Positions 30,234-33,714 of a stretch of 64,000 bases of DNA are shown one piece after another; positions within the stretch are counted from its first letter, which is position 1; each line of letters opens with the position of its first letter. A program made the translations under genes and the position numbers. The notes below the pieces were generated by a model, which saw only the letters and a program-made list of their open reading frames with translations, was not told where the DNA came from and searched no databases. This stretch comes from Oscillospiraceae bacterium (lineage in GTDB: Bacteria > Bacillota > Clostridia > UBA1381 > UBA9506): assembly GCA_015069045.1 (NCBI GenBank), contig SVJJ01000002.1, positions 62,001-126,000 of the forward strand, written 5' to 3'.

Positions 30234-30265
30234 AAACAAAAGAATAAAAGTGAGGTATTTTGCTT

Positions 30266-31015
30266 ATGAAAGCCTTTTTTCGGTTTTTATTAGCCACTAT
30301 TGGCCTATTAATTTTAATGAATGCAGGCTATTTGTGGATGGTATCCAACTATAATCTGGGTTTATTATTAGCAACAATCCTTGGATGTGTATTTTTATTA
30401 TATGCCCTGCTGTTTAATGTAATAAATCGCTTACTCCGTAACACCTTTGGTCGCATTATAAAGGTAAGTATATTGATTACAGCCACTATTTTTATTTTTA
30501 TTTCTACTTTAATCAGCGTTGCCGGGCGCAGTAATACTGTCACATACCAAGAAGATGCTATTATCGTGTTGGGGGCAGGCATTCACGAAGAGCAGGTATC
30601 CCGTGTTTTAGCATATCGACTGGATACAGCGTTGCAATACCACAAAATGAATCCTCATGCTTTATTGGTGCTTTCCGGCGGCCAAGGGCCAGGGGAAACC
30701 ATATCAGAGGCAGCGGCAATGGAACGATATTTATTGGCCCGTGGTGCAGATCCGGCAAAAATTATTCGGGAGGAACGCGCTACCTCTACCTATGAAAACT
30801 TTTTAAATTCAAAAGAGCTGTTAGACGCAACATTAAAAACACCCTATAAGATCGCTTATATAACAAATCAATTTCACATGTACCGCGCCGGCCGTATTGC
30901 CGTAACCGCCGGGCTTTTCCCTACCAGATTCCATGCGCAAAACGACCTAATAACGCTCCTACCCGATTATCTCCGAGAATGCTGTGCTATCCTAAATTTT
31001 TGGATAAGAGGATGA
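30266..31015 (+). CDS. YdcF/SanA family (DUF218) membrane protein
   Basis: The 249-residue protein has two or three N-terminal membrane segments (about residues 4-22, 28-46 and 58-80), then a DUF218 domain: DAIIVLGAGIHEEQVSRVL, LLVLSGGQGPGETISEAAAM and ATSTYENFLNSK. Relatives (SanA, ElyC, YdcF) are tied to envelope integrity, though the reaction is unknown. I chose ATG 30266 with GTGAGG ten bases upstream; a TTG at 30260 is less likely. Its stop is followed after three bases by the left end of the mobile unit, so an insertion may have replaced its original downstream region. Confidence 0.9.
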   Translation: MKAFFRFLLATIGLLILMNAGYLWMVSNYNLGLLLATILGCVFLLYALLFNVINRLLRNTFGRIIKVSILITATIFIFISTLISVAGRSNTVTYQEDAIIVLGAGIHEEQVSRVLAYRLDTALQYHKMNPHALLVLSGGQGPGETISEAAAMERYLLARGADPAKIIREERATSTYENFLNSKELLDATLKTPYKIAYITNQFHMYRAGRIAVTAGLFPTRFHAQNDLITLLPDYLRECCAILNFWIRG

Positions 31016-31018
31016 TGT

Positions 31019-31055
31019 AAAAAGGGACTGTATAGGGTGTGTACTCTTAAGGACA
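31019..31055 (+). repeat. Left terminal inverted repeat
   Basis: Starts AAAAAGGGACTGTATA and ends CTTAAGGACA; these outer 16 and inner 10 bases are identical to the reverse complement of 32746-32782, while the 11 bases between differ. Confidence 0.75.
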
Positions 31056-31062
31056 GTAATTT

Positions 31063-31100
31063 TAAAAGGCAGAAACGAAATCAATCGTTTCTGCCTTTTA
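31063..31100. terminator. Left subterminal hairpin, terminator-like
   Basis: A 16-bp perfect stem (31063-31078 with 31085-31100), 6-base loop, ending CTGCCTTTTA. It may end transcription of the YdcF-family gene, or serve the element as a recognised hairpin. Confidence 0.75.
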
Positions 31101-31106
31101 TCGTAA

Positions 31107-31128
31107 GGGACGATGCCCACATCGTCCC
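31107..31128. repeat. REP-like hairpin A
   Basis: GGGACGATG (31107-31115), loop CCCA, CATCGTCCC (31120-31128). Similar in layout to hairpin B; together they resemble REP-type sequences near RAYT genes. Confidence 0.6.
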
Positions 31129-31160
31129 GTTTTAAGGTCTTAGGATTATCCTTAATATTT

Positions 31161-31181
31161 GGAAGATGCCATACATCTTCC
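31161..31181. repeat. REP-like hairpin B
   Basis: GGAAGATG (31161-31168), loop CCATA, CATCTTCC (31174-31181). It shares GATGCC and CATC with hairpin A while the outer stem pairs differ together. Confidence 0.6.
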
Positions 31182-31205
31182 CTGCTTGTTATAGTAGCGG
31201 ACAAA

Positions 31206-31901
31206 TTATTGGTAAAAGCCTGCATTACCCAATGTTGTAGTTCCGCTTGAGTATGATGTAAAAAATTGAATTTTAAAATCGTTACAACCTGTTATATCAA
31301 TATCAATATTAACTGGTCTTGATGTTTTATCTAATTCTGGAGAAGTATATATAGTTTTTCCATCAGCAATTATTTTTATATATTTTGTACCACTCACAGT
31401 GCCTTCGCGCATGTATAACGTTGCTTTAAAACGGCTGTATTTCATATTTAGCAAATATTCAATTTCACTACCACTGTACTGAATCTGTATGCCATCACTA
31501 TACCTATTGCCGTAATTATCAACAAGAGCATCTCCACTTAATATATGATAGTCATCACCACTAATATTTTTTAAGTCGGTAATATATTTTGTTGGGAACT
31601 CAAGTTTTCCATCCATATCGCCAAGATAAACCGTATATTCAGGGCCATCCCAATAAACTGCTTTTCCTAAAGCATCTGCCACAGCTCGCACTGGAAGATA
31701 TGTAGTACCATTATAAATCATCGGCTCAACTCTGTTGCCGTTAGCATCCGTTGGATTTAATTTCTTTCCATCAACAACAATCTTGATGCCGTTTGCAACA
31801 ACATCATATAATGTTGTTGTGTTAGCAGCAATAGCCGCCCCGCCTGTAATTGTCGTTCCAATCAACGCACCAGCAATTAATCCTTGTAATCTTTTCTTCA
31901 T
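31206..31901 (-). CDS. Secreted stalk-domain/NPCBM-like protein (element cargo)
   Basis: The 231-residue protein has a signal peptide (MKKRLQGLIAGALIGTTITG and on to about residue 27), then a copper-amine-oxidase N-terminal-like 'stalk' domain (about 30-95; KIVVDGKKLNP, YNGTTYLPVRAVADALGKAV) and a C-terminal beta domain resembling NPCBM carbohydrate-binding modules (about 130-231; RPVNIDIDITGCNDFKIQF). It is exported and probably cell-surface attached or sugar-binding; no enzymatic residues are evident. It lies inside the mobile unit, divergent from the transposase, as a passenger. A TTTGGAGG-type ribosome binding site precedes it. Confidence 0.75.
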   Translation of the reverse strand: MKKRLQGLIAGALIGTTITGGAAIAANTTTLYDVVANGIKIVVDGKKLNPTDANGNRVEPMIYNGTTYLPVRAVADALGKAVYWDGPEYTVYLGDMDGKLEFPTKYITDLKNISGDDYHILSGDALVDNYGNRYSDGIQIQYSGSEIEYLLNMKYSRFKATLYMREGTVSGTKYIKIIADGKTIYTSPELDKTSRPVNIDIDITGCNDFKIQFFTSYSSGTTTLGNAGFYQ

Positions 31902-31947
31902 AGTGTTTTACCTCCAAACGTTTAATTGTGATTTAATAGTTAAAAGT

Positions 31948-31976
31948 ATTATAACATATAATTCCTCTAAATGCAA
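31948..31976 (-). promoter_or_regulatory. Promoter of the stalk-domain gene
   Basis: On the minus strand TTGCAT (31971-31976), 17 bases, TATAAT (31948-31953). The -35 overlaps one arm of a dyad whose other arm lies just before the divergent small gene. Confidence 0.65.
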
Positions 31977-32031
31977 TACATTTGTTATGCATACGGCAAA
32001 ACTATATTTATATATAATTGTATTGCAGAGG
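31964..32031. promoter_or_regulatory. Dyad spanning the divergent control region
   Basis: CCTCT-aaa-TGCAATACA (31964-31980) is mirrored by TGTATTGCAGAGG (32019-32031). The arms flank the divergent promoter region, one over the stalk-gene -35 and one over the ribosome binding site of the small gene, so they are candidate operator half-sites or a transposase hairpin. Confidence 0.5.
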
Positions 32032-32038
32032 TGATTAT

Positions 32039-32212
32039 ATGAAAAAGTTTAAGATTCCATCTATTCCGCCAACAACTAATAAATGTATCAGATTTCCAAA
32101 TGATATAATTGATGCTGTGGAAAAGGCAATAGAAGGCAAAAATTGTACATTTACTGCTTTTGTTGTTGAATCAGTTCGAGTTGCATTAGAAAACATTGAA
32201 GATGAAAAATAA
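32039..32212 (+). CDS. Small ribbon-helix-helix-like protein
   Basis: A 57-residue protein starting MKKFKIPSIPPTTNKCIRFP, with a short beta-like segment KCIRFPNDIIDAVEKAIEG followed by two helices ending ESVRVALENIEDEK. This layout (strand-helix-helix, about 45 residues) matches ribbon-helix-helix DNA-binding proteins, many of which occur beside RAYT genes. AGAGGTGATT is its ribosome binding site. Its end overlaps the transposase start by 11 bases, so the two are translationally coupled. Inference: a repressor or accessory factor of the transposase. Confidence 0.7.
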   Translation: MKKFKIPSIPPTTNKCIRFPNDIIDAVEKAIEGKNCTFTAFVVESVRVALENIEDEK

Positions 32213-32726
32213 TTTACCAAAACGAAAATCAACAAGATTAAAAGGGTATGATTATTCTGCACCCGGTGCATATTTTGTTACAATTTGCGTGAAAGACAGA
32301 AAAGAATTATTATCAAAGATAATTGTAGGGACAGGCGTCCTCGACTGTCCGCAAAACATATTAACAAATTACGGAGAAATTGCAAACAAACATCTTCAAA
32401 ACATGAGTGATTTTTATGAAGATATTAAATTGACAAAGTTTGTAATAATGCCAAATCATATTCATTTGTTGATTCAAATATTAGAAACAAACAAATCAAA
32501 CGGACCGTCGGGGACGCCGGTCCCTACAAATTCGGAGATGGCAAAATTCGTCAGTACATTTAAAAGGTTTTGCAACAAGGAATATGGCGAAAATATATGG
32601 CAGGCTCGTTCAAACGACCATATTATCCGCGATGAAATGGACTATCGAAAAATATGGGAATACATAGACACAAACCCTTTAAAATGGGAAAAAGATTGTT
32701 TTTATAACAGCGAAACGCCGATGTGA
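32202..32726 (+). CDS. REP-associated tyrosine transposase (RAYT, Y1/HUH)
   Basis: The 174-residue protein is a Y1-type single-strand transposase. Visible are the N-terminal KRKSTRLKGYDYSAPGAYFV, the HUH motif in VIMPNHIHLLIQI (two His around one residue), and the C-terminal DHIIRDEMDYRKIWEYIDTN with WQ just before it, typical of the RAYT group. Such enzymes cut and move REP sequences. I chose ATG 32202; a TTG six bases upstream is weaker. The gene itself contains two REP-like hairpins in frame (32325-32350 and 32502-32527), read as IIVGTGVLDCP and NGPSGTPVPTN. Looks intact. Confidence 0.9.
   Translation: MKNNLPKRKSTRLKGYDYSAPGAYFVTICVKDRKELLSKIIVGTGVLDCPQNILTNYGEIANKHLQNMSDFYEDIKLTKFVIMPNHIHLLIQILETNKSNGPSGTPVPTNSEMAKFVSTFKRFCNKEYGENIWQARSNDHIIRDEMDYRKIWEYIDTNPLKWEKDCFYNSETPM
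32325..32350 (+). repeat. REP-like hairpin 1 inside RAYT gene
   Basis: A 26-base unit starting GTAGGGAC; stem GGACAG (32329-32334) with CTGTCC (32345-32350) and a 10-base loop GCGTCCTCGA. It is homologous to 32502-32527 in reverse. Confidence 0.75.
32502..32527 (-). repeat. REP-like hairpin 2 inside RAYT gene, inverted
   Basis: On the minus strand 23 of 26 bases equal hairpin 1. Stem GGACCG/CGGTCC replaces GGACAG/CTGTCC, a paired A-T to C-G change, which implies the hairpin itself is under selection. Confidence 0.75.
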
Positions 32727-32743
32727 ATTTCACATCGGCGTTT
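32713..32743. terminator. Right subterminal hairpin over the RAYT stop codon
   Basis: A near-perfect dyad: AAACGCCGATGTGA against TCACATCGGCGTTT around a 3-base ATT loop. The TGA stop codon of the transposase lies in the left arm. GTTTATT follows; it acts as terminator and/or element-end hairpin. Confidence 0.75.
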
Positions 32744-32745
32744 AT

Positions 32746-32782
32746 TGTCCTTAAGAACACCGCGCATATACAGTCCCTTTTT
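32746..32782 (-). repeat. Right terminal inverted repeat
   Basis: Reverse complement starts AAAAAGGGACTGTATA and ends CTTAAGGACA, matching 31019-31055. Confidence 0.75.
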
Positions 32783-32796
32783 TATTATGTATTATT

Positions 32797-33714
32797 TTAT
32801 TTAATCTTTTTAATATCGTAAGGCGTTACCTGATATACAAAATAATTTAACCAGTTTGAATACAAAAGATTGGCATGGCTCCGCCAAGTAACCTGTGGCA
32901 TTTGTGACGGGTCGTCATTGGGAAAATAATGTTTTGGAACAGAAATAGGCAATCCGGCTTTCACATCACGCATATATTCCCGTTGCAAGGTAAAAGCATC
33001 GTATTCCGAATGACCCGTTACAAAAATTTGCCGCCCCCTCTTTGTGCTGATAACGTAGAGACCAGCCTCGTCAGAAGATGCCAAAATTTTCAATTGAGGC
33101 ACTTTTTCCACATCCTCCCGAAGAACGGTAGTATGTCGGGAATGAGGAGCCAAAAATACATCATCAAAACCACGGAATAATATGGAAGATTTATGCTCCA
33201 CGCGATGGTCATAAACACCGAAAAGTTTTTCAGGCAGGGAACGTTTTTTGATGCCATAATGATAATACAAACCCGCCTGAGCACCCCAACAAATATGAAA
33301 CGTGCTGGTTACATGGGTTTTTGTCCACTCAAAAATCTGACACAGTTCCTCCCAGTAATTTACTTCTTCAAATTCCATGAGTTCCACGGGGGCACCGGTA
33401 ATGACCATGCCGTCAAAGGTTTCTTCCTTTACTTCGGCAAAGGTTTTATAAAAGGATAACATGTGTTCTTCATTAATATTTTTTGACTTATAACTCTCTG
33501 TGTGGAGCAAAGTAAGTTCTACCTGCAGCGGTGTATTCCCCAGCAACCGCGCAAGCTGGGTTTCCGTTTCTATTTTGGTAGGCATTAAGTTTAAAATAGC
33601 TATTTTCAGGGGACGTATGTCCTGGGTTAGAGCCCGCGTTTCCGTAATAACAAATATGTTTTCTTCTGTAAGTGTTTTCGTTGCCGGAAGCCGATTGGGT
33701 ATCTTAATTGGCAT
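32797..33714 (-). CDS. metA: Homoserine O-acyltransferase MetA
   Basis: MetA acylates homoserine with acetyl- or succinyl-CoA at the start of methionine synthesis. The 305-residue protein has the family start [20 protein letters not shown], the nucleophile block [18 protein letters not shown] with its cysteine, and the late [16 protein letters not shown] carrying the catalytic Glu and His region. Acyl specificity depends on one residue near the active site that I have not resolved; many clostridial MetA proteins use acetyl-CoA. The gene starts 91 bases after the tyrS stop with no visible SAM riboswitch. Confidence 0.95.

Follow-up and report, generated by a model that had tools for sequence, protein, structure and literature searches.

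The gene for a RAYT, a transposase of the HUH/Tyr type, lies at 31019-32782 of the window (the whole 64,000-nucleotide stretch of DNA analysed) within a unit bounded by inverted repeats. RAYTs serve as the textbook case of transposase domestication in bacteria, and to our knowledge no movement of a RAYT gene is known; the locus raises the question of whether such a gene has moved here, within what borders and into what target.

Structure of the unit and its borders

In a repeat search the top-ranking inverted pair of the region was 31019-31059 with 32742-32782 (41 nt, 80%). Its two ends agree exactly, in inverted orientation, over the outer 16 nt and the inner CTTAAGGACA, and the division into 16, 11 (divergent) and 10 bases given by an earlier, sequence-only reading is accurate as letters. 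The chance of an exact 16-nt inverted pair within 1.8 kb is about 4e-4 (a rough estimate with equal base frequencies). An exact search of the window's genome gave no further match to AAGGGACTGTATA. That reading had also placed a strong hairpin inside each end and the insertion 3 bases past the DUF218 stop; perfect hairpins were found just inside the unit ends at 31063-31100 (16-bp arms) and 32713-32743 (15-bp arms), and the repeat begins 3 nt downstream of the stop at 31013-31015. The features are as follows.

30263..31015, + strand: DUF218 gene, left neighbour; stop 3 nt before the terminator half
31019..31030, no strand: host terminator, left half (AAAAAGGGACTG); matches 32771-32782, outer arms copy-specific and self-matching
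31031..31056, + strand: element's left terminal repeat (TATAGGGTGTGTACTCTTAAGGACAG), its border known to within about 2 nt
31063..31100, no strand: left subterminal hairpin; A/T-flanked, terminator-like on both strands
31103..31128, + strand: REP-like hairpin with GTAAG head, directly behind the left hairpin
31206..31901, - strand: passenger, a secreted protein with copper-amine-oxidase-N (stalk) and NPCBM domains
32039..32212, + strand: small YlcI/YnfO-family protein, probably ribbon-helix-helix (RHH), a likely regulator
32202..32726, + strand: RAYT (HUH/Tyr transposase), 174 aa, H86, H88, Y154
32323..32351, + strand: GTAG-REP within the RAYT coding sequence
32501..32529, - strand: second GTAG-REP within the RAYT coding sequence, inverted
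32713..32743, no strand: right subterminal hairpin; overlaps the RAYT stop, terminator-like
32744..32770, - strand: element's right terminal repeat; border 32768-32770
32771..32782, no strand: host terminator, right half (CAGTCCCTTTTT); matches the left half, copy-specific outer arm
32797..33714, - strand: metA (homoserine O-succinyltransferase), right neighbour, convergent

Bounding repeats and gene content together confirmed a small element which boxes a HUH transposase with a secreted passenger. Sequence comparison divides what had been described as a 37-bp inverted repeat into two components. Its outer 12 bp are the two halves of an intrinsic terminator between the convergent DUF218 and metA genes, and its inner part of approximately 24 bp (consensus TATGRGGTGTACTCTWAAGGACAG) is the terminal repeat of the element itself, with a hairpin after each copy. 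The biological border lies at about 31030/31031 on the left and 32768-32770 on the right, host terminator outside and element repeat inside, the exact cut points being uncertain by about 2-5 nt; the element is about 1.74 kb long and has terminal inverted repeats (TIRs) of 24-26 bp, each with a hairpin on its inner side.

Outer arms belong to the site

A second copy, consisting of a RAYT remnant with 509 bp between the repeat cores, was found on contig C18 of the same genome. Its inner ends are those of the window copy (GTACTSTTAAGGAYAG, then an identical left hairpin), whereas its outer part is AAAAAAGCTRTAGC / GCTACAGCTTTTTTT. Because the two copies share the inner and not the outer part, the outer arm belongs to the site and not to the element; the outer arms, with an A-run and GC-rich stem on one side and a complementary stem and T-run on the other, have the form of a bidirectional intrinsic terminator. 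The claim of a 37-bp element repeat thus held for the inner part, which is kept, and failed for the outer arm, which varies by copy.

RAYT and left-end searches of 95 genomes of the order and 391 genomes of the class gave 48 left ends for study, with copies of the element occurring in other families of the class. All genomes were drafts, the named relatives being metagenome-assembled, and contigs often break at these repeats. In 19 paired units from other Clostridia the inner ends were common and the outer arms different, and conservation ended at position -5 (TATGR) on both sides. An A-run of at least 5 preceded 40 of the 48 left ends, compared to 8.8% of random windows, and the outer arms within a unit carried the A-run and T-run of a terminator. 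Outer arms matched each other within the first 14 pairs, 11 of which ranked first (sum 98.4, against a permutation mean of 54.3 and maximum of 81.9). With the TATGR letters masked, and with repeat score as the sole criterion for picking 19 pairs, 14 ranked first (sum 127.0; mean 68.2, sd 5.0 and maximum 96.5 over 100,000 permutations).

Among the exceptions, the right arm of L154 matched the left arm of L169, a further copy in the same genome, so two copies were probably joined there by assembly or exchange; L047 ranked first only with the last 6 nt included, and L067, L158 and L206 had no matching outer arms. A contig scan turned up 62 RAYT loci, almost all of them without such ends, and so gave no new pairs. 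RNAalifold found no shared base pair among the right ends, as each element has a hairpin sequence of its own; the resulting right-end model is based on sequence only and was set aside.

Empty sites and movement

The sequence-only reading had proposed a search for empty sites, and element-free counterparts of related sites were indeed found in sister genomes. In G003 a 1,970-bp element (L153) lies between mltG-like and sigma-factor-like genes (named by eye from their translations). The same gene pair in G009 aligns straight through the site with 77% identity over 601 bp, and AAAGAGGCTG-CATAA-CAGCCTCTTTTTTT is unbroken there as an intact terminator; in G007 a single contig carries both flanks, 274 bp separate them, and the first gene is followed immediately by an intact terminator hairpin. 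These two-flank empty sites come from two genomes of the genus, which are sister species with diverged terminators. The left gene at the C18 site has orthologues in G002, G004, G005, G009 and G017, and in all five an intact terminator directly follows the stop, as it does for the DUF218 orthologue in G004; terminator-like hairpins were found near the metA 3' end in five sister genomes. No two-flank empty counterpart of the window insertion was found among the sister species, and comparisons at this site are single-flank because DUF218 and metA have other neighbours there.

Identity between L154 and L155, two units of G003 at different terminators, is 96.5% over 509 bp, and the left end of L169, 97% identical and also from G003, lies at another; these near-identical copies at different terminators show recent movement. 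At least 15 of 21 units are between convergent genes. No target duplication beyond chance was seen in 21 junctions (one 4-nt match, against a chance rate of 22%). Taken as sequence comparisons, these data show a discrete unit across Clostridia with conserved ends, copy-specific, self-matching flanks that are terminator halves, and intact terminators at empty sites.

Two further loci were observed. In L072 (G007:C16), just past a DUF218 orthologue, the terminator stem AAAAAAACTGTCTC / GAGACAGTTTTTTT is split by roughly 90 nt which have an inner palindrome of their own, perhaps another small insertion in a terminator loop. Positions 1937-2024 of L038 (G000:C20) hold a relic, consisting of a right end and RAYT tail, behind a gene resembling RNase P RNA (by eye).

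The RAYT enzyme and its REPs

H86, H88 and Y154 of the window RAYT are invariant across 32 relatives. Its structural model (pLDDT 79) had E. coli RAYT (4ER8) as best match (E 1.5e-7), followed by IS200/IS605 transposases. The best and only strong family was NCBIfam REP_Tyr_transpos, at 58.3 bits against a curated cut-off of 80 bits, which makes the protein a divergent member by sequence.

The window GTAG-REPs lie inside the RAYT gene and behind the left hairpin, with no outer pair flanking the gene, and GTAG-REPs occupy the same place as the 31103-31128 hairpin in L037, L049, L067, L153 and L154. The two inverted REPs in the coding sequence are approximately 190-200 bp apart and bracket the HUH-bearing core; a similar arrangement was seen in the RAYT genes of L049, L161, L166 and L154, and REP stems were alike within one element and different between elements. 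Such paired intragenic REPs could let RAYT cores be exchanged.

TIR-bearing genes were scattered over many places of the RAYT tree (10 changes for 11 rows), which ruled out a single clade of TIR-bearing RAYTs; therefore either one kind of end serves divergent RAYTs or the cores have been exchanged. Five units (L202, L205, L293, L294 and L309) have no RAYT and must therefore be moved in trans, if they move at all. The link between end and enzyme is loose on both these grounds.

L041, L042, L043, L051, L058, L156, L165 and most other scanned RAYT loci were without these ends. Many such genes begin at the upstream gene's stop codon or immediately past it, and a hairpin, in many cases of right-end type, comes after them; this is a second, operon-like arrangement.

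Cargo of the units

Copies with the same ends and other passengers, also proposed beforehand as a check, exist. The N-terminus of the window passenger recurs in other units, and stalk-domain proteins sharing a conserved N-terminus (MKKRLQGL...) were the commonest passenger (L040, L044, L047, L049, L050, L153, L161, L306 and L309, with L293 similar), while zinc-ribbon membrane proteins are the passengers of L166 and L205. XRE or RHH proteins stand at the place of the YlcI/YnfO-family protein in other units, and one or other precedes the RAYT in most full-length units. Among the units with a complete gene, L307 is the smallest (692 bp), and a RAYT is its sole gene.

In L202 (G035:C11, 1346-4396), a 3.05-kb unit with these ends and no RAYT, an XRE regulator accompanies a C39-peptidase ABC exporter and a 65-aa peptide that has a Gly-Gly motif; the unit is a possible mobile bacteriocin cassette. 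Short units of 416-509 bp (L037, L067, L154, L155 and L157) keep both ends, but none has the passenger, the regulator or the N-terminal part of the RAYT. Several are joined at the GTAG-REP behind the left hairpin, as if by deletion between this REP and the first REP within the RAYT gene.

Proposed mechanism and alternative explanations

The unit is quite probably a transposon that was moved by its RAYT and entered the loop of the bidirectional DUF218-metA terminator with no duplication of the target, the role of the enzyme as mover being inferred. Like IS200/IS605 transposases, the RAYT would act on single-stranded DNA. Both terminal repeats would pair on the single strand and present the hairpins, the HUH/Tyr site would cut near TATGR, and the excised strand would be joined, with no duplication, into the loop that a terminator hairpin exposes, giving the structure as seen; the target hairpin may be single-stranded during lagging-strand synthesis. 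Transcription of both neighbours could still stop, because the element hairpins, which are A/T-flanked and terminator-like on each strand, could act from either side; this would make a terminator loop a low-cost landing site. The small regulator is tentatively given the probable role of limiting expression of transposase and passenger. Insertion in terminator loops, common to relatives in other gut bacteria, suggests a safe-landing strategy.

Could the outer arms instead be an extended terminal repeat which varies by copy, the terminator not being the target? The identity of the outer 16 nt on both sides in the window suits this, but the near-identical L154, L155 and L169 have unrelated outer arms, conservation ends at TATGR and terminators are found at the same spot in empty sites, which makes it highly improbable; the copy-specific arms, the TATGR limit and the empty-site terminators likewise refute all 37 bp, or the outer 16 bp, as the terminal repeat. 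A terminator-like hairpin at each end is also what would be expected of immobile genes fixed between two unrelated terminators, a reading left with next to no probability by the second copy in the genome, the copies in other families of the class and the empty sites. Terminal repeats of about 24 bp would suit a DDE-type insertion sequence or MITE in which the RAYT is incidental, and DDE elements preferring palindromes exist; as no DDE-like gene was recognised in any unit and the junctions are without target duplication, this is very unlikely.

It is unlikely, to a lesser degree, that the RAYT is cargo or domesticated and that an unknown enzyme moves the element in trans. The units without a RAYT and the enclosure of divergent RAYTs by the same ends favour such an enzyme, as do published RAYTs without gene mobility (PMC8266576). 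Against it, no recombinase besides the RAYT was seen in any unit, subterminal hairpins without target duplication suit a Y1 enzyme, and L307 holds a RAYT alone.

Movement by the RAYT, in a unit which has moved with cargo, would offer a model for how REP-linked enzymes could spread. A very large number of genes are followed by the defined structure that serves as its target, and the element is a candidate for insertion that is guided by structure rather than sequence and barely disturbs the host; it may also offer secreted proteins and bacteriocin-type exporters a way to spread among gut Clostridia.

Comparison with known systems

The window unit has its transposase family and fold, as well as GTAG-headed hairpins within unit and gene, in common with REPtrons. 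It differs in having terminal repeats, cargo, several copies and empty sites, whereas REPtron genes are reported to be single-copy, with evidence of mobility absent (Nunvar et al. 2010, PMC2817692; PMC8266576) and RAYTs are described as single-copy and vertically inherited (PMC8049555). A Y1 HUH transposase, subterminal hairpins and the lack of target duplication are all shared with the IS200/IS605 group, which is without terminal inverted repeats (PMC2817692), in contrast to the 24-bp repeats found here. The group uses a short fixed target sequence, IS608 inserting beside a fixed tetranucleotide (PMC5934647). The window-type element instead occupies hairpin loops irrespective of their sequence.

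Group IIC introns, which are reverse-transcriptase retroelements, also use intrinsic terminator hairpins as low-cost targets and insert beside the stem, whereas the window-type element splits the terminator at its loop. No reverse transcriptase domain was matched among the scanned proteins, and no listed ORF was of that size except the L202 exporter. No relevant report of insertion into terminator loops was found in the open-access literature, most subscription papers being outside this scope.

The closest likeness is to TIRtrons or TIRYTs, RAYT-like genes between terminal inverted repeats and not REPs (Di Nocera et al. 2013, PMC3733652; Quentin et al. 2018, PMC6006769), which is also the arrangement found here. 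In the portions of these papers that describe them, the majority share the motif GGGGWSAS, most belong to subclass 2.1 with a C-terminal helix-turn-helix (HTH), and no terminator target, empty sites or cargo are reported (PMC3733652, PMC6006769). The window left end GGGGTGTA misses this motif by at least one letter, the motif is absent from the consensus left end TATGGGGTGTAC, and no C-terminal HTH was matched in the window RAYT. We lean towards a class of HUH (RAYT) transposons, equipped with terminal repeats and carrying cargo that can be exchanged, which would choose terminator loops by hairpin shape and not by sequence, keep the stops of both neighbours by means of their own terminator hairpins and include the first RAYT gene shown to move. 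The unit looks like a variant TIRtron that is mobile and targets terminators.
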